Source: Chloroflexota bacterium (GTDB taxonomy: Bacteria > Chloroflexota > UBA6077 > JADZDV01). From it: a stretch of DNA of 32,690 bases. Within the stretch, counting starts at the first letter, position 1. Every line of letters begins with the position of its first letter. The translations under genes and the position numbers were made by a program. The stretch lies in assembly GCA_020850915.1 (NCBI GenBank), contig JADZDV010000591.1, positions 1 to 32,690 of the forward strand, in the 5' to 3' direction. Below are positions 6,154 to 28,523 of the stretch, one piece after another. Below the pieces are notes generated by a model that did no database searches, was not told where the DNA came from, and worked only from the letters and a program-made list of their open reading frames with translations.

Positions 6154-8136
6154 ATGCAGCGTCGTCTCACGCTCTGCTTAACGCTGGCCCTGCTCGTGGT
6201 CGTGCTGAGTCCACCCCAGCCGGCCCGCTTGCAGGGCTACGAGGCCATCCAGCCGCTGCCGCCGGTCGCATCGCGCGACCCGCGTTTTGGCATCGTCCAG
6301 GCGCTCCAATCGCCCAGCCTCGCCAGCGCGGCGGGAGCAACCTGGGAGCGGATCATCTTTCCCTGGACTGTCATGGAGCGGGAGCCCGGCAAGATCGGCC
6401 CGGGATACTTCTCGGATGACCGCATCCGCGCCGAGGTGGCGCGCGGGTTCACGGTTGTGGGCCTGCTGATCTACACGCCCGATTGGGCCGCCCCGAATCC
6501 CAGGGCGCCTCACCCGAAGTACGTGCCTCGCAACCTCTACCGGACCTGGAACGACCCGGACAACTACTGGGGACGCTTCGTCTGGGCGGTAGCACACCGC
6601 TACCAGGGGATCGTGAACCAGTGGATCGTCTGGAACGAGATGGACATCTACGATCCTGCCGGACGCTACTCCTTTGACGGCAGCTTCGAGGATTACTTCC
6701 AGTTGGTGAAGGTCGCGTACCAGGCAGCCAAGGCAGCCAACCCGAAGGCACGGGTCATGCTGGGCGGTATGGCCTACTGGCTCGATCAGACGTACGGCCG
6801 CCCGCCGTACCTCGCGTCGCTGCTCGAGGTCGCGAAACGCGACCCACTTGCGCGGCTGAACGGCTACTTCTTCGACGGCGTGATCGTCCACACCTATGCA
6901 AACCCCCTCAACTCGTATGCCGTCCCGACGGTGATGCGGCGGATCATGCGGGAGCGCGGCTTCGACAAACCGATCTGGATTGGCGAGAGCAACGTCGTGC
7001 CCGGCGACGATACTCTGGCGCCGACGCCGCCCGGCTCGTTCCGGGCGAGCATGGAAGAGCAGGCCGACTACATCATCCAGTCGTTCGCGCTCGGCATCGC
7101 GGCCGGTGTCGAACGACAGGGCGTCTACAAGATGATCGATGAGCAGCCTGAGAACGGCCAGTGGTTCGGTCTGGTCCGCAACGACGGTTCAGTCAGGCCA
7201 GCTTACGTGGCGTATCAGGTGGCCGCGAAGTACATGGCCGGTGCAAAGTGGGCGTTCTACGCGTGGAACGGCTCGTCGAGCCCCCCGACAGACGAAGAGA
7301 TCACCGGCCTGCTCGACTCCGATCGCAACCGCACACAGTTCCAGTGGCCGGGCGATATCAATCGGGTCGTCATCGAGCGCGGCCCTCGGCTCACAACGGT
7401 CGTCTGGAACAGCTCGGGGGTTCCGGTCCGCGGCCGGATTCCGGCGGCGGCGCCTTACGCGGTCGCGGTGACGCCAGCCGGCCAGGTGGGCCAATTTGTG
7501 GCGCGCAACGGCTTCTACGAGATCGACCTGGATCCGAGCCATCACAACGCGGATCCGAACGACCGCTCGGTCAATCTCATCGGCGGACGCCCCTGGATCC
7601 TCGAGGAGAACGTGACGCCCTTGCCCGGCACCGTCCGCACGGAGATCGAGAGCGTCTGGCCACATGGCAATGCGCCGGTCGAGCAGGCGACCCAGGCGGA
7701 CATCGTTGGCGACCTGCTCCTGCCCGACCGCTCTGCTCCGGCGCCGTGCCGATGGGAACCGCGAGTACAGCTCTGGGCTGCCCAGAACGGCGGCGACCGG
7801 CGGGTGATCGCCACGGGACGGAAGGACTGGGTGCTGCGTGACGGTCGCCGCGATCCTGTCTGGCGCTTCGACAACATCGACGTGCGAGCGGCGCGCAGCT
7901 TCATGAACTGGCTCGAGTTCACCATCACGGTGGACGGCTATCCCTCGAGCGCCCAGCCGTGGGTCTACCGCGCCCCGCCGCCGCCACTCCAGCCGGAGCC
8001 CGCCCCGGCCGGCCAGACCGCTCTGGCCACCGCTCCAATCACCAGCCCGACTCCAGGACCGGAGCAAGTGGCGCCGCCTGGCCCACCGGCGACCGACACG
8101 AGCGTGCCGTTCAGCCTGCCGGCCGGCTGCGCCTGA
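6154..8136 (+). CDS. Secreted clan GH-A glycoside hydrolase-like protein
   Basis: This 660-aa exported protein has a signal peptide at residues 1-28 ('LTLCLTLALLVVVLSPPQPA'). Residues 45 to about 370 form a TIM-barrel of the GH5/GH39-like type: 'QWIVWNEMD' places the acid/base at E162, and 'KPIWIGESN' places the nucleophile at E278. Other barrel landmarks are 'GVIVHTYANPL' and 'MLGGMAYWL'. The C-terminal part (about 420-610) looks like one or two beta-sandwich modules, ending in a Pro-rich tail. It probably cleaves a glycoside or polysaccharide outside the cell; the substrate cannot be read. ATG 6154 was chosen because it starts the signal peptide; the longer frame runs into the hairpin. Some relatives are annotated only as hypothetical, so activity remains to be shown. 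Confidence 0.8.
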   Translation: MQRRLTLCLTLALLVVVLSPPQPARLQGYEAIQPLPPVASRDPRFGIVQALQSPSLASAAGATWERIIFPWTVMEREPGKIGPGYFSDDRIRAEVARGFTVVGLLIYTPDWAAPNPRAPHPKYVPRNLYRTWNDPDNYWGRFVWAVAHRYQGIVNQWIVWNEMDIYDPAGRYSFDGSFEDYFQLVKVAYQAAKAANPKARVMLGGMAYWLDQTYGRPPYLASLLEVAKRDPLARLNGYFFDGVIVHTYANPLNSYAVPTVMRRIMRERGFDKPIWIGESNVVPGDDTLAPTPPGSFRASMEEQADYIIQSFALGIAAGVERQGVYKMIDEQPENGQWFGLVRNDGSVRPAYVAYQVAAKYMAGAKWAFYAWNGSSSPPTDEEITGLLDSDRNRTQFQWPGDINRVVIERGPRLTTVVWNSSGVPVRGRIPAAAPYAVAVTPAGQVGQFVARNGFYEIDLDPSHHNADPNDRSVNLIGGRPWILEENVTPLPGTVRTEIESVWPHGNAPVEQATQADIVGDLLLPDRSAPAPCRWEPRVQLWAAQNGGDRRVIATGRKDWVLRDGRRDPVWRFDNIDVRAARSFMNWLEFTITVDGYPSSAQPWVYRAPPPPLQPEPAPAGQTALATAPITSPTPGPEQVAPPGPPATDTSVPFSLPAGCA

Positions 8137-9101: not shown

Positions 9102-10427
9102 GTGCAAGCGATACCGCTCCGAAAAGCGCGCTCCTCTCGTCCAGGGCGTTTCCTGAGACACGGCGGGCTGCTCCTGCTGATCGCGGCGTTGTCCGCCAGC
9201 GCCATCGCATCACAGTCCGGTTTCCAGCCGGATCTCGCGGCCGCGCTGGTCGGACTAGCGCTGGCGCCCGCCCCGGAGCCCTCGCTGCCCGCGGCCGCGG
9301 CTCCGGTGGTAATGCCACCCTCGTCCGTGACCGCGCCTGCTGCCACCCAGGGCGCTCAGACTGGCGACGTCGCCGAGCACGATTCCGCGGTCCTGTCGAG
9401 TCGCACGACCTTTCCAGCCGGCGACTGGGTCTTGAACCACCGCGAGGCGGTGCTCTACGCGCAGCCATCAGCTCAGTCCGAGCGGTTCACGACGCTCCCG
9501 CCATGGAGCTACCTCCGAGTGCTGGACGGCACGCCGGGCTGGCTGCTGGTGCTCTACGATGGCGATGGCGCGCGGCAGGCCGGGACGGCCTGGGTTCCGG
9601 CCGACGCGGTCGGACCGTCAGATCCGCCGCCGGGCTGGCTGATGAGCGTCGTCGACACGCCGCTGCTGGCTGGTCCTCACGACGGCGCGCCGCGCTTCAC
9701 TACCGTCCCACCATGGACCATTCTCCAGGTCACTGGTGACCAGCAGAACGGACGCGTGCCGGTCTTGTACGCGGGCGACGGCCAGGGGCATGCGCCCGGT
9801 CCCGCCTGGGCCGAGCGCCAGTACCTGGAGTACGCTCGAGCGCCTCGCGACTCGCGCCTGGACTGGGGCCAGCGGGCTGGGGCGGCTGGGGACCTCGTGC
9901 GCCTCAACATCCCGCATCGCTCTCAGCTCGACGGCAGCGCGTTCGCCCGCTCCAACTCTGGACCGGTCGCGGTAGCGATGGCTCTCGCCGCGTTCGGCCG
10001 CGACGTACCGACCGCTGAGCTCCGCGACCTCGCCAATCGGTCCCAGCGAACGCCGATCCCGAGCGACCGTCTCGGCATCGACGTCGTGGCGTCCCTGGTG
10101 GAGCGCGAGGGCCTCCGGCCGGTGGATCTCTTCGCGTCGAGCGGGCAGCTTGCGCGCTGGCGCCTGGACGACATCCGGCACCATCTCCGCGCCGGGCACC
10201 CGGTGATCCCACAGCTTCGCTATCGCCTGGTCCCCGGTAACGACACGTACTCCGCGACGTACGACCATTTCGTCGTCATTGCCGGCTTCGAGGGCAGCCG
10301 CTTCCTCTACAACGACCCGATCCCGGGGCGACAGGGGACCGGGGACGTCTGGATCGAGGGCGACCTCCTGGAGCGCGCCTGGGCCGCCAGCGACGCGCCA
10401 TACGCCGGCTTCGCGGTCCGCCCCTAG
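9102..10427 (+). CDS. Exported SH3-like repeats plus C39-like pseudo-peptidase domain
   Basis: This 441-aa protein has an N-terminal membrane/signal segment ('GGLLLLIAALSASAIASQ', 21-38) and a Pro/Ala-rich linker (about 50-100). Two SH3b-like modules follow: about 107-172 ('WVLNHREAVLYAQPS', 'TLPPWSYLRVLDG') and about 179-245 ('DTPLLAGPHDGAPRFTTVPP'). The C-terminal domain (267-441) is C39-like: 'NIPHRSQLDGSAFARSNSGP' at 269-288, then 'TYDHFVVIAGFEGSRFLYND'. In active C39_2 peptidases the block reads N-C-G-P. Here the nucleophile position is S286 (codon TCT at 9957-9959), while H389 and D405 are kept. It is therefore predicted to be a non-proteolytic envelope or peptide-binding protein, or one with unusual Ser chemistry. 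GTG 9102 is chosen from the -10 spacing. Confidence 0.78.
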   Translation: MQAIPLRKARSSRPGRFLRHGGLLLLIAALSASAIASQSGFQPDLAAALVGLALAPAPEPSLPAAAAPVVMPPSSVTAPAATQGAQTGDVAEHDSAVLSSRTTFPAGDWVLNHREAVLYAQPSAQSERFTTLPPWSYLRVLDGTPGWLLVLYDGDGARQAGTAWVPADAVGPSDPPPGWLMSVVDTPLLAGPHDGAPRFTTVPPWTILQVTGDQQNGRVPVLYAGDGQGHAPGPAWAERQYLEYARAPRDSRLDWGQRAGAAGDLVRLNIPHRSQLDGSAFARSNSGPVAVAMALAAFGRDVPTAELRDLANRSQRTPIPSDRLGIDVVASLVEREGLRPVDLFASSGQLARWRLDDIRHHLRAGHPVIPQLRYRLVPGNDTYSATYDHFVVIAGFEGSRFLYNDPIPGRQGTGDVWIEGDLLERAWAASDAPYAGFAVRP

Positions 10428-19458: not shown

Positions 19459-20622
19459 TCAGCTTTGTCCCCGCGTGGCCCCGACGCCCTCGGCGTGGCC
19501 GGCCACCCCGTTCGCCGGGTGGTTCGCGGCCCCGTTCCCGCCGTCAACACTCGGGACACCAGCGATGAACGCCTCTGTCAGATTGCGAGCCACCTCGTCC
19601 TTGTACTGGACCGGCGGGGATTTCATCAGGTAGGCGGATGGCCCCTCGAGCGCGCCGGACAGGCCGCGGTCGCGGGCGAGCTTGACGCAGCGCACCGCGT
19701 CGATCACGACGCCCGCGGAGTTCGGCGAATCCCACACCTCGAGCTTCATCTCCAGGTTGAGCGGCACATCACCGAACGAGCGGCCCTCCAGTCGAATGTA
19801 GGCCCACTTGCGGTCCGTCAGCCACGGCACATAGTCCGAGGGACCGATGTAGACGTTCTCCGCGCCGAGGTCGTAGTCGAGCTGGCTGGTGACCGAGTTG
19901 GTCTTGGAGATCTTCTTCGACTCCAGCCGACTGCGCTCCAGCATGTTCATGAAGTCGGTGTTGCCGCCGACGTTGAGCTGGCTGGTTCGCTCCAGGCGCA
20001 CGCCGCGCTCGCGGACGAGGCGGGCCAGGACTCGGTGGACGATGGTCGCCCCGACCTGGCTCTTGATGTCGTCGCCGACGATCGGTAGGCCGGCCTGCTC
20101 GAAGCGACCGCGCCAGTAGGCCTCGCGCGCGATGAACACCGGAATGCCGTTGACGAAGCCGCAGCCGGCCTGGAGCACCTGCTCCACGTACCACTTCGTC
20201 GCCGTCTCGCTCCCCACCGGCAGGTAGTTGACGACCACATCCGTACCCGTGTCCTGAAGGATGCGCACGATGTCGGATGTCGAGCCATCGGCCTTGGTGA
20301 TGACTTTGGAGAGGTACTGGCCAAGCCCGTCATGAGTCATGCCGCGCTGGACCTGGACGCCAAGCCGCGGGACGTCCGAGAACCGGATGGTGTTGTTCTG
20401 ACCGGAGAAGACCGCCTCGCTCAGATCCTTGCCGACCTTGTCACGGTCGACGTCGAACGCGGCGGAGAACTCGACGTCGCCGACGTGGTAGCCGCCAAGA
20501 TCAACGTGCATGAGACCGGGGACGAAGTCGTCCGGAGCGGCGTCGCGGTAGTACTGGACGCCCTGGACGAGGGCGGAGGCACAGTTGCCAACGCCGACGA
20601 TGGCGACGCGAACTTTGGACAT
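19459..20622 (-). CDS. ino1: Inositol-3-phosphate synthase
   Basis: This 387-aa NAD-dependent cytoplasmic synthase converts glucose-6-phosphate to 1L-myo-inositol-1-phosphate, the first step toward inositol lipids, mycothiol-like thiols or compatible solutes. It is the actinobacterial/archaeal type. The N-terminus has '[20 protein letters not shown]'. Further blocks are '[20 protein letters not shown]', '[13 protein letters not shown]', '[20 protein letters not shown]' and '[13 protein letters not shown]', with catalytic lysines in '[14 protein letters not shown]' and the C-terminal '[20 protein letters not shown]'. GGGAG lies upstream of the ATG. The last 30 residues are variable. The promoter is covered by two palindromes shared with the divergent LacI-type gene. 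Confidence 0.94.
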
Positions 20623-20657
20623 GGGTGATATGCTCCCGATTGAAGTGCGCTACAGCC

Positions 20658-20663
20658 ATCCTA
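20658..20663 (-). promoter_or_regulatory. -10 box of ino1
   Basis: TAGGAT on the minus strand sits 17 bp from TTCCGG (20681-20686), a weak -35 that lies at the junction of the two operator palindromes. Predicted start is near 20651. Confidence 0.5.
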
Positions 20664-20668
20664 GCACA

Positions 20669-20696
20669 GGAAAGCGCTTTCCGGAAAGCGCTTTCC
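20669..20696. promoter_or_regulatory. Two abutting perfect palindromic operators (LacI-type)
   Basis: GGAAAGCGCTTTCC occurs twice without any gap, at 20669-20682 and 20683-20696. The core AAAGCGCTTT with a central CG is the classic LacI/GalR-family operator form. The pair overlaps the spacer and -35 of ino1 on one side and the -35/spacer of the regulator gene on the other, so binding should block both promoters. Centres are 14 bp apart, less than two helical turns, so the two dimers would bind on different faces or compete. Confidence 0.85.
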
Positions 20697-20702
20697 GCAT
20701 CG

Positions 20703-20708
20703 TATTCT
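20703..20708 (+). promoter_or_regulatory. -10 box of the LacI-type regulator gene
   Basis: TATTCT starts 6 bp after the second operator. The paired -35 region falls inside the operators, predicting autorepression. The predicted leader is about 58 nt. Confidence 0.45.
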
Positions 20709-20771
20709 GGCCGGTTCCACCAGGCATGGTGCCCCTCACACTGGGCTGCGCTGCATGAGGGTGCGATCGCG

Positions 20772-21770
20772 GTGACAACGATTCGCGACGTGGCAGTCCG
20801 GGCGGGCGTGTCCATTGCCACCGTGTCGCGCGTGCTGAACCGCTCCGATCACCCGGTGCGGTTGGACGTTCGTGAGCGTGTCCTGCGGGCCGCGGCAGAG
20901 CTGGACTTCCACCCGAGCTCGCTGGCGCGGGCGCTCGCCGGGCGCGATACCCGTACTCTGGCGCTGGTCGTGCCGGACATCGCCAACCCGTATTACCCGC
21001 GGCTGTCCCGCGGCGCGGAGGACGTGGCGTCGGGCCACGGCTACGCGCTGTTGATCTGCAATACGGACTACTCTGCCGCCAAGCTGGACGAATACCTGCG
21101 CATCCTGCGGGACAAACGAGTTGACGGGGTGCTGCTGGCGGGCGGTGGCAACGAGCAGAACGGCGCCATCGGCGCGCTGGCCGGAGCGTCGCTGCCGATC
21201 GTCGCGGTGGGTCGCCATGCCCTTGATGCCCCGGCCGTGCGGATCGACAACGTGCTCGCCGCCGAGATGGCGACGAGCCACCTCCTCGCGCTCGGTCGCC
21301 GGCGGATCGCCGTTCTGGGCGGACCGCGGGACCATACGACCGTCGCGGACCGCCTGGCTGGTTATCGCCGGGCACTCGGACGGGTGGGGCTTGCGCCGGC
21401 TCGAGAGCTGGAAGGGGACTTCACCCCGCGCTCGGGACAGCAGGCAGTTGCGCAGCTTCTCACGGGGAGCTGCCTGCCAGACGGCCTCTTCTGCGCCAAT
21501 GACAGCATGGCGATCGGCGCGCTCGTGCAGTTTCGCCGCGCGGGCGTGCGGATTCCCGAAGACGTCGCAATTGTCGGATTCGACGATGTGCCACTCGCGG
21601 AATACGTTGAACCCGGTCTGACGAGTGTCGCCGTGCCGGCCTACGAGCTGGGCGCAACGGCCGCGACGATGCTGGTCTCAAGACTTTCTGGCAGGGCGGT
21701 GGACACCGTCGTCTGGCTGCGGACGACGGTGGTCGTGCGCGGCTCGACGGTTACTCGAGATACTCCTTGA
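20772..21770 (+). CDS. LacI/GalR-family transcriptional regulator
   Basis: This 332-aa protein has an N-terminal helix-turn-helix and hinge: 'TTIRDVAVRAGVSIATVSRV', then LNRSDHPV, with the hinge helix 'SSLARALAGR'. A periplasmic-binding-protein-like sugar-sensing core follows ('TLALVVPDIANPYYPRLSRG', 'FDDVPLAEYVEPGLTSV'). GTG 20772 is the start: it opens the HTH directly and has GAGGG 10 nt upstream. The frame is open further upstream but would run over the operator. It is divergent from ino1, with two perfect palindromes in between, so it is predicted to control ino1 and itself in response to a sugar or inositol-related ligand. Its 3' end overlaps the convergent sigma-factor gene by 20 bp. 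Confidence 0.92.
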   Translation: MTTIRDVAVRAGVSIATVSRVLNRSDHPVRLDVRERVLRAAAELDFHPSSLARALAGRDTRTLALVVPDIANPYYPRLSRGAEDVASGHGYALLICNTDYSAAKLDEYLRILRDKRVDGVLLAGGGNEQNGAIGALAGASLPIVAVGRHALDAPAVRIDNVLAAEMATSHLLALGRRRIAVLGGPRDHTTVADRLAGYRRALGRVGLAPARELEGDFTPRSGQQAVAQLLTGSCLPDGLFCANDSMAIGALVQFRRAGVRIPEDVAIVGFDDVPLAEYVEPGLTSVAVPAYELGATAATMLVSRLSGRAVDTVVWLRTTVVVRGSTVTRDTP

Positions 21771-22848
21771 GGCGGCGACGCAGCTCCGGGCGACGTAGCT
21801 TGGCGATCGCCTCGGATTCGATCTGGCGGACACGCTCGCGGGAGAGACCGAGGATGTTCGCGATCTCGCCGAGCGTGTGCGGACGCCGGTCCATGATCCC
21901 GAACCGCATCTTGAGCACCAGCCGCTCCCGGCCGGTCAGCGTCTGGAGAGCCTCCTCGACGTGGTCGCTCAGGAGCCGCTCCTCCGCCACGTCCGACGGC
22001 GGCCGACCCTGGCGATCGGCCACCAGGTCGGCAACCGTGCTCTCGTCATCACCGCCAATCGGCGCCTCCAGGGAGATCGGCGTGCTGGCGGCGCGGAGCG
22101 TCTCGCGGACCTTCTCGACGGTGATCCCCATCGCCTCGGCGATCTCCTCGGGCAGCGGCTCGCGGCCGAGGTCCTGCTGGAGACGCTGCGAGGCCGAGAA
22201 GACGTCGCCGATGAACTCGATCATGTGGACTGGCACGCGGATCGTCCGGCTCTGATTGGCGATCGCCCGCGTGACCGCCTGGCGAATCCACCAGTAGGCG
22301 TAGGTGCTGAACTTGTAACCGCGCCGGTAATCAAACTTCTCTACAGCGCGCGACAGACCGATGTTGCCCTCCTGGATCAGGTCGAGGAGCGGCAGGCCGC
22401 GGCCCATGTACTTCCGGGCGACGGAGACGACGAGCCGGAGGTTGGATTCCATCAGACGGCGTCGGGCCGCCTCGCCACGCTCCAGGTCTTCCTGGAGGTC
22501 GTGATGGCGGCCGATCTGCGCCAGCGCCGCGACCTCTTCGTTGGCCCTGAGACCTCGCTCGTAGGCCATGGCAAGCTCAACTTCTTGCGCCGCGGTGAGG
22601 AGCGGCACCCGAGTGATGTCTCGGAAGTAGATGGCCAGCGAAGAATCGGCCACCATGTCGACGTCGAGCTGCTGCGTCTCGATCGCGTGAACGTCAAGCA
22701 GCTCCTGCGCTACCGCGGGCTCGTGGTAGCCTCCCGAAGTGTCGTCCTCGGACCACTCAGGATCAAGCTCGTCAGAGGTCTCTTCCGACTCCTCCTCATC
22801 GTCCTGGTCCTCGATATCCACCAGCTCGCTCTCAGCGATCTCAGTCAT
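21751..22848 (-). CDS. rpoD: RpoD-family primary-type sigma factor
   Basis: This 365-aa sigma-70 protein has an acidic N-terminus ('LVDIEDQDDEEESEETSDEL') in place of a long region 1.1. Region 1.2 begins 'SLAIYFRDITRVPLLTAAQE'. Region 2 contains 'NLRLVVSVARKYMGRGLPLL', 'DLIQEGNIGLSRAVEKFDYR' and the -10-melting 'YKFSTYAYWWIRQAVTRAIA'. Region 3 follows. Region 4 ends in 'GEIANILGLSRERVRQIESE', the -35-binding helix. The start at 22848 has AAGGA upstream; an earlier start at 22935 adds unlike sequence. It is either the housekeeping sigma or a close paralogue. The window's promoters (TTGACA/TAnnnT) agree with such a factor. It overlaps the convergent LacI-type gene by 20 bp at the 3' end. Confidence 0.92.
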   Translation of the reverse strand: MTEIAESELVDIEDQDDEEESEETSDELDPEWSEDDTSGGYHEPAVAQELLDVHAIETQQLDVDMVADSSLAIYFRDITRVPLLTAAQEVELAMAYERGLRANEEVAALAQIGRHHDLQEDLERGEAARRRLMESNLRLVVSVARKYMGRGLPLLDLIQEGNIGLSRAVEKFDYRRGYKFSTYAYWWIRQAVTRAIANQSRTIRVPVHMIEFIGDVFSASQRLQQDLGREPLPEEIAEAMGITVEKVRETLRAASTPISLEAPIGGDDESTVADLVADRQGRPPSDVAEERLLSDHVEEALQTLTGRERLVLKMRFGIMDRRPHTLGEIANILGLSRERVRQIESEAIAKLRRPELRRRLKEYLE

Positions 22849-26195: not shown

Positions 26196-28523
26196 ATGGC
26201 GGGAGTCTCACAATCGCATCACTTTCGGCCGTCTTCTCCTGCTTGTCACCTTCTGTTACGCACCCGAAACGTGATACTACGCAAGACGCCCGGCCAGTCG
26301 CGTTGCTACGCGGTCGGCTGTCACATCCAGGAGTGGCCCGCGTCGTTGACCCCGGTAGCTCTTCGATATCTGACGCTGCTCTGCATCGTCGCTAGCCTGT
26401 CTCTTGCCGTGCTCGCAGACGGTGCGCCAGGCGGACTCGCCGCCAACCAGCTCACCGCGCCGCTCGCCGCCGTGCCCGGCTGTCCAACGGGTGTCCCTCC
26501 GGGCACCTATGTACTGGAGTCGAAATGGGGCGGCGAGGGATCCGGCGACGGTGAGTTCTCGGCGCCCAGCGGCGTTGCCGTCGATCCCCTCGGCAACGTC
26601 TACATTGCCGACGACAACAATCATCGCGTCCAGAAGTTTGACGCATCCGGCGCGTTCCTCGCCAAGTGGGGTACCAACGGCGGCGGGAGCGGCCAGTTCC
26701 AGGACCCCCGAGGCATCGGCTTCGGGAATGGCAGCGTTTTCGTCGCGGACACCTTCAACGATCGTCTGCAAGTGTTCACGCCGAACGGCAGCCCGCTGCT
26801 GCGCTGGGGTAGCTTCGGCACGGCGGATGGGCAGTTCAAGCGGCCGTACGGCGTGGCCGTGAACGACAGCGGCGACTCCTTTGTCGCGGACTACCAGAAT
26901 CACCGCATCCAGAAGTTCAACGCGGATGGGTCGTGGCTGCAGAAGTGGGGGACGCCCGGCTCGGCGGACGGCCAATTGAGCTTTCCGCGCGGGACAGCCC
27001 TTGACAGCTCGGGCAACGTCTACGTCGTCGAGGAGGGCAACCGCCGCGTTTCGAAGTTCACAGCAACCGGCGAGTTCCAGATGAGGTTTGGCAGCGGCGG
27101 CGACGGGATTGGCCAGTTCGACACGCCGCGCGGCGTCGCGGTGGACGGGTTCGGAAACATCTACGTCGCGGATACGTTCAACAACCGGGTTCAGAAGTTC
27201 GATTCGACGGGTGCCTTTCTCGCGACGTGGGGGACCGGCGGTCCAGGGGACGGCGAGCTCAGTTCTCCCTACGGAGTGGCGGTGGACAGCTCCGGGGGCG
27301 TCTACGTCGCGGACACCGGCAATAACCGCGTCCAGAAGTTTGCCGCCTGTTCTGGGACCGCGCCGACGGCCACCGTCACGCTGACGCCCACGGCGACGAC
27401 AACCCCCACCCTCAGCGCGACGCCGACCCAGACCGCCACGAGCACGAGCGTGCCGACCCCGACCGAGACCGCGACCGCGACTGCGACGCCCAGTCCGACC
27501 TACACGGACACTCCGACGCCCACGCAGACGAGCACGCCGACCGCCACCCTCGCGCCCACCATGACGCCGACCTCGACTGAGGTGCCGACCGCCACTCCAA
27601 CCCTCACACCGTCGGCGACACCGACGATCACGGCGACGCCGACGGTGACTCAGACCCCAACCAGGACGCTCGTGCCGACCCGAACGCCAGTCCCAACGCG
27701 GACGCGAGCCCCGACGAAAACCCGAGTCCCTACCAGAACTCCCGTGCCAACGCGAACTCCGACGCCAACAAGAACGCTCACTCCGACCCGAACGCCGCGG
27801 CCTTCGCTCACACCAACCGAGTTTCCGACCGCGACCGCCACCCGCGCCGCGTCGCCCTCCCCCTCCCCCACGGCAAGCTCCCTGCCTACCGCCACGTCCG
27901 TAGTGGCGGGTACGGCCTCCCCGACCGTAACCGTCACAGCGACGCCCACAGTCCCGCCCACGGCGACGGGGACGCCCACAGTCCCGCCCACGGCGACGGG
28001 GACGCCCACAGTCCCGCCCACGGCGACGGGGACGCCCACAGTCCCGCCCACGGCGACGGGGACGCCCACGGTCCCGCCCACGGCGACGGCGACGCCCACA
28101 GTCCCGCCCACGGCGACGGGGACGCCCACGGTCCCGCCCACGGCGACGGGGACGCCCACAGTCCCGCCCACGGCGACGGCGACGGCGACGCCCTGGTCCG
28201 GCCAGCTCGTCAACGAGACCCGTTCGATCGTTCTTTCGATCGTTCAGCAGACGTCCAGCCGGACAACTCTGCGGGCTGACGTCGTGGCGGTGAGCGGCTC
28301 GGGCAATCCGTTGCCCGGCGTCGGGGTGACCGTTGAGCTGGTCCAGCCGGACGGCTCAACGGTCGTGGGCAAGGCCAAGACGAAGGCCAGCGGTGTGGCG
28401 ACGCACTCGTTCCGGGTGCGGCAGCCAGGGCTGTATATCGCCCGTGTGCGGGCGATAACCGCCAGGGGCCGAACGTTCCAGCCGGGGCCCGCCGACTGGT
28501 CAGATCCGGTCGCCGTACCATAG
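26196..28523 (+). CDS. Exported six-blade NHL propeller with Thr-Pro stalk
   Basis: This protein is up to 775 aa. The hydrophobic segment '[20 protein letters not shown]' is the export signal. Six NHL repeats follow (about residues 108-385), each of the form '[20 protein letters not shown]' plus QKFD, making a complete six-bladed propeller. About 270 residues of Thr-Pro-rich sequence come next, including eight [10 protein letters not shown] units. A C-terminal domain (about 670-775) contains '[14 protein letters not shown]', '[18 protein letters not shown]' and '[10 protein letters not shown]'. The same domain recurs in the gene at 30804. Start is uncertain: ATG 26196 lacks a ribosome site; GTG 26271 shortens the unusual N-terminus. 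It is probably a surface-displayed ligand-binding or adhesion protein. No enzyme motif was seen. Confidence 0.82.
27942..28181. repeat. Eight 30-bp in-frame tandem repeats encoding [10 protein letters not shown]
   Basis: There are eight near-identical units, ACGCCCACAGTCCCGCCCAC plus a CGGCGACGGGG-type end. Differences are few (AGT/GGT, GGGG/GGCG), so the array is recent and likely to vary in copy number between strains. It lengthens the stalk by 10 residues per unit without changing frame. Confidence 0.95.

Follow-up and report, generated by a model that had tools for sequence, protein, structure and literature searches.

Two abutting LacI-type operators in the spacer that separates ino1 from a divergently oriented LacI-family gene in a Chloroflexota bacterium

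The DNA analyzed here, referred to below as the window, is a stretch of 32,690 nucleotides from a Chloroflexota bacterium (contig JADZDV010000591.1) in which ino1 and a LacI-family gene are divergently oriented around a common spacer. ino1 (positions 19459 to 20622, minus strand, with its ATG at 20622) encodes an inositol-3-phosphate synthase of 387 amino acids that matches TIGR03450 (mycothiol_INO1; 552.6 bits, E value of 3.8e-166, under the curated cutoff of 638) and PF01658 (125.1 bits, above the cutoff of 27). The regulator gene, here called lacI (20772 to 21770, plus strand), encodes 332 amino acids and most likely starts at the GTG at 20772, so that the ino1-lacI spacer runs from 20623 to 20771. 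Its product has an N-terminal LacI helix-turn-helix and a periplasmic-binding-protein-like sensor domain (PF00356 and PF13377) and belongs to the LacI/GalR family; 20 NCBIfam models matched it, none at the cutoff. An AlphaFold model of the protein (pLDDT of 86.3) aligned best with CcpA, PurR, RbsR, and LacI, and this predicted fold shows its family only. The tetramerization tail of LacI comprises residues 340 to 357 (PMC3899939); since the 332-residue window protein seems to be without this tail, it is probably a dimer.

Within the spacer, two exact copies of the CG-centered 14-bp palindrome GGAAAGCGCTTTCC lie end to end, an ino1-proximal operator at 20669 to 20682 and a lacI-proximal operator at 20683 to 20696, with their centers 14 bp apart and with neither overlap nor gap. 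The half-sites, GGAAAGC and GCTTTCC, form an even palindrome around a central CG, as in operators of the LacI/GalR family, for which a central CG is usual according to PMC4052901. Because each copy is itself palindromic, the pair (20669 to 20696) forms one perfect palindrome of 28 bp, the longest in the window. The longest palindrome in 200 simulated windows (first-order Markov) was at most 22 bp, and we therefore rejected a chance origin of the palindrome; the two abutting, perfect LacI-type operators described in a first-pass annotation of this DNA were thus confirmed. It is the palindrome that constitutes the evidence, and the bare number of matches is not telling: at up to 3 mismatches, the whole window holds one further match to GGAAAGCGCTTTCC (at 9121, with 3 mismatches), while shuffled windows averaged 1.24 matches, 14 of 100 reaching three. 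Two other candidates were set aside. The junction palindrome GCTTTCCGGAAAGC is disfavored as a third operator, its outer base being C and not the G that is paired with R20 of the regulator, and a CcpA-like global site appears unlikely, as the window has no second good site and the arms are unlike the cre consensus.

We searched 251 Chloroflexota genomes for the abutting pair, allowing up to 2 mismatches and using the reversed pattern as a control. The pair was present in 4 genomes (control, 0; chance expectation, 0.04 to 0.22). One of them, G243, repeats the arrangement of the window, with ino1, the pair, and a divergent LacI gene in that order; the contig stops inside the LacI gene, and the encoded fragment has the SIATVSR helix of the window protein and 45% identity to it over 187 residues. 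In G155, the pair is directly upstream of ino1, and in G160 and G081, it immediately precedes LacI-family genes whose products have 39 and 35% identity, respectively. In the phylum to which G004 belongs, a search of 249 genomes returned G004 and G429, with one match in the control; G004 had been known before this search, so that G429, in which the pair precedes a LacI gene (30% identity), is the sole new match. Among 68 LacI upstream regions, one (that of G004) has an abutting CG-centered pair, against an expectation of 0.06, and G099, with a LacI protein of 50% identity, has only an imperfect pair at a spacing of 13 bp. That the pair might be a chance or structural element with no regulatory role is in keeping with its occurrence in few lineages. 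The recurrence of the element at ino1 and LacI genes, with no control match in the 251 genomes, joins the simulation in arguing against this reading, to which we give next to no credence.

The window LacI protein has 21 listed orthologues (P0002 to P0022, from the jgi, lgn, and ena sets; 58 to 91% identity, two of them short pieces), most of which carry the recognition helix VSIATVSR; P0034 and P0061 (55% identity, short) may be orthologues too. In some orthologue predictions, the spacer has been translated because the predicted start lies too early. Nineteen LacI proteins have an N-terminal extension, three of them orthologues, and the extension KALSGKRFP of P0016 is an exact frame of the pair, while ESAFWKALS of P0017 is another frame of it with one change; the third, P0021, shows no pair. 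The P0016 and P0017 stretches, which were chosen for this test after being seen, permit two perfect abutting CG-centered palindromes, as do 0 of 400 random 16-residue protein pieces. A further candidate read-through, that of P0244 (a 46% relative), was rejected, its score of 14 being equaled or exceeded by 51 of 400 random pieces. Longest-contig sizes are equal in three LacI/Ino1 orthologue pairs (40289, 17554, and 4310), which suggests that lacI and ino1 stay linked among the orthologues. The best LacI identity in 400 Chloroflexota genomes was 50%, a second draw of 371 genomes gave a single match, the same one as before, with 21 genomes listed that added none to those of the first draw, and viral contigs gave none; the class of G023 was represented by one genome.

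We also examined 34 other ino1 loci, namely, the 30 best Chloroflexota matches together with L131 and L068 to L070. None of the 34 has a LacI neighbor, and upstream stretches of up to 1.5 kb contain no copy of the operator. In a tree built from 61 Ino1 sequences (the window, 32 of the 34 loci [L069 and L070 were left out], and 28 of 120 listed proteins), the window protein groups with P0121 to P0137 (17 proteins from jgi and ena; support of 100/99) amid Chloroflexota sequences. Conservation of the pair in related ino1/LacI spacers, proposed earlier as a check, was therefore seen in part: the pair is present in G243, in G155, and in the two protein read-throughs, and it is absent from the 34 other ino1 loci, all of them without a LacI neighbor. 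In two Chloroflexota loci (L107 and L127), ino1 is preceded by a gene whose product, by eye, resembles an ArsR-like helix-turn-helix protein. The literature listings searched contain no report of a Chloroflexota divergon of LacI and ino1, and the divergent unit, absent from the 34 other loci examined, appears to be new. Because the same arrangement recurs in a few relatives, the pair and its neighboring genes very probably constitute a real switch.

The nearest genome-derived relatives of the regulator come from Moorella-type genomes; in all, LacI proteins of 48 to 51% identity were seen in 10 of the genomes examined (G001 to G003, G099, G422, G506, G570, G595, G620, and G645). The site GGAAAACGTTTTCC is present upstream of the LacI gene in 9 of the 10 and is missing in G099; it lies at −27 to −32 in seven genomes, at −75 in G422, and at −236 in G620, and in 8 of the 9 genomes, it is just downstream of a TTGACA and −10-like box, which is the position of a repressor site. 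It was absent within 260 bp of 13 weaker LacI matches. The sequence GGAAANCGNTTTCC occurs exactly in 12 of 153 loci (962,914 bases), and these are the loci of the nine genomes with GGAAAACGTTTTCC and of G004. The window and these relatives share the operator arms (GGAAA...TTTCC) and differ in the base adjoining the central CG, so that the Moorella-type core is ACGT and that of the window is GCGC. Moreover, in 7 of 9 Moorella-type cases there is one perfect site near the gene start, with more imperfect sites upstream, in contrast with the abutting pair of the window. In the LacI code of PMC2978694, R20 is tied to the outer operator G, and residues 55, 15, and 5 are tied to the inner base. R20 of the recognition helix and the outer G of the operator agree with this code; R20 is common to the window and Moorella proteins, whereas residues 5 and 15 differ, as the code would suggest. 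Residue 15 alone was rejected as an explanation of the inner base, since the L004 protein has I15 like the window protein and yet has an ACGT core.

The first-pass annotation had the pair overlap the promoters on both sides, which was borne out only in part. No promoter was found on either strand between 20600 and 20800 when these positions were scanned for sigma-70 promoters under strict settings. On the ino1 side, reading the sequence directly gave a putative extended −10-like box, TGCTAGGAT (20658 to 20666, minus strand), 2 bp from the pair. Counterparts occupy the same place in G243 (TGCTAGGCT) and G155 (TGCTACGGT), so that in all three ino1 promoters the pair is followed within 1 to 2 bp by a TGCTA-type −10 sequence. 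Counted on the sequence, the expected −35 position is 17 bp before the −10-like box and coincides with the operator junction, TTCCGG (20681 to 20686, minus strand), a poor match to TTGACA; the expected −35 positions of G243 and G155 are poor as well. On the lacI side, we found only a weak −10-like TATTCT (20703 to 20708, plus strand), a low-confidence assignment. The ino1 ATG of G155 and G243 is merely 6 bp past the −10-like box (L169:1278 and L156:1482), and the leader in the window is longer; as judged from these positions, the spacing suggests that the ino1 mRNAs of G155 and G243 may be leaderless.

We infer that the adjacent LacI-family protein probably binds the abutting operators and represses both ino1 and its own gene, with an effector modulating binding. 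The protein would recognize both 14-bp palindromes, and one or two dimers on the pair would cover the ino1 −35 region and block RNA polymerase. The same bound dimers would also hold down transcription of lacI on the other side. Binding would be altered by a small effector, probably myo-inositol or else a close metabolite, so that ino1 output would track need; myo-inositol is a first candidate by its likeness to the effector of IpsA only. Repression of ino1 together with autorepression is favored because the pair covers the −35 position and because the site in the relatives is downstream of the −10-like box. As the first-pass annotation had it, the operators are common to ino1 and the divergent LacI gene; the autoregulation that it proposed is probable.

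LacI-type control of ino1 had been thought to be without a standard precedent, a view that did not survive comparison with IpsA (Cg2910 and Rv3575), a LacI-type regulator of ino1 in Corynebacteriales that is described, with myo-inositol as the effector, in corynebacteria and mycobacteria (PMC3899939). According to the same source, IpsA of Corynebacterium glutamicum activates ino1 from two sites in the ino1 promoter, and myo-inositol releases it. The window shares with this system a LacI-type protein, two palindromic sites in the ino1 promoter, and a link to control of inositol synthesis. The window protein might likewise use the same operators to activate ino1 and be released by inositol; the pair would then stand in for the missing −35 box, with the bound regulator recruiting polymerase. 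Because the strict promoter scan found nothing, and with −35 positions that are poor in the window, G243, and G155, a promoter that depends on an activator is conceivable. However, PMC3899939 reports that IpsA-activated genes have sites upstream of −35, whereas repressed genes have sites overlapping −35 and/or −10, and the window pair instead lies on the expected −35 position of a promoter that is itself predicted only. In addition, among the nearest genome-derived relatives, 8 of 9 genomes have the site past the −10-like box, where repression is expected. We therefore regard activation as unlikely and repression as the better account. The two systems differ in other respects as well: the IpsA gene is next to znuACB in many genomes, away from ino1 (same source), whereas lacI is divergent to ino1 and has one abutting operator pair in common with it; IpsA also has further targets. 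The window protein may not be close to IpsA in sequence: the best 60 of its 136 PDB matches (best, 1.6e-53; 60th, 1.4e-19) do not include the IpsA structure 3H5T; the structure is likewise outside the best 60 of 80 matches for an actinobacterial LacI protein, L039. The window points to a further case of inositol synthesis being controlled at its first step by a LacI-type regulator, here in an uncultured clade that is probably of the Chloroflexota; the gene arrangement differs from that of IpsA, and the sign is possibly opposite.

It could also be argued that the pair chiefly autoregulates the LacI gene, that the true targets are elsewhere, and that ino1 is a bystander. In G004, G160, G081, and G429, the pair is upstream of a LacI gene and the stretch read contains no ino1; the Moorella-type LacI gene precedes an operon that looks catabolic by eye, where the window has ino1, and the three Moorella genomes searched are without ino1. 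Against this stand the pair at ino1 in G155, where the 9 kb that were read gave no match to LacI, and the searched neighbors in the window, which are Ino1, an isochorismatase-type protein, a zinc dehydrogenase, a sigma factor, and an aldo/keto reductase. Nor is there a sign of a wide regulon: counted per strand at up to 2 mismatches, single sites numbered 24 in G155 (control, 31) and 23 in G243 (control, 14). Because these numbers are near those of the control, a small local regulon is likely as judged by site counts, and a wider G243 regulon was rejected, its single sites being near background and those that were inspected lying among genes that share no function by eye. We consider a bystander role for ino1 improbable, more so than activation, and we retain repression of ino1 and lacI from the shared pair.

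The 14-bp center spacing had been called unusually tight, an impression that the literature corrects. In PMC4052901, pairs of LacI-family sites show spacing peaks at 13, 22, and 32 bp, and pairs at ~13 bp occur upstream of 110 operons, with GntR at gntKU as the tested case; such pairs are described as hard to reconcile with dimer-DNA structures, which contact the seven bp nearest the center. GntR of Escherichia coli at gntKU thus resembles the window in having two LacI-family sites closer than two usual footprints, and in E. coli K-12, we found a TGTTACCGATAACA site and, by eye, a second one 13 bp on, which fits the 13-bp class. The sites of that class overlap, whereas those of the window, at 14 bp, abut exactly. 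Similar abutment was seen elsewhere. L004 (a Bacillota metagenome-assembled genome) has three abutting 14-bp sites at 7436 to 7477 (GGAAAACGTTTTCC at 7436, GGAAAACGTTTAAC at 7450, and GGAAATCGATTTCC at 7464), located downstream of a TTGACA/GATAAT-type promoter and before what by eye is a creatininase-like gene, and two abutting sites (4905 and 4919) in its lacI promoter. In L154, L155, and L161 (1501 to 1528), 14-bp sites abut in pairs upstream of LacI genes that belong to other subfamilies; GGAAACCGGTTTCC occurs twice in L154, where the recognition helix is SRGTVSK, and the helix in L161 is SPTTVSR.

Strict 14-bp abutment and the triple array look like a sibling mode of the 13-bp class, and arrays in which two or three 14-bp sites strictly abut are new. 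We tentatively hypothesize that such arrays of strictly abutting 14-bp operators represent a separate mode of binding, employed by several LacI subfamilies of the Chloroflexota and the Bacillota, in which adjacent dimers would pack side by side on rotated faces of one DNA stretch or exclude each other, and that the window element might thereby share out a single repressor between lacI and ino1. The pairs and the one triple, all in the same register, are natural substrates for the open structural question on tight LacI pairs: at 14 bp, the seven-bp contact zones just touch without overlapping, which makes simultaneous versus exclusive occupancy directly testable.

Three other features of the window may be recorded. 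An RpoD-like sigma factor gene (21754 to 22848) is convergent with lacI, its best RpoD models being under their cutoffs. Two overlapping frames at 141 to 942 look like a broken IS256-type transposase. Finally, a long open reading frame at 26196 to 28523 has what by eye are NHL-like repeats, together with a TPT-rich stretch of low complexity whose units are nearly identical.
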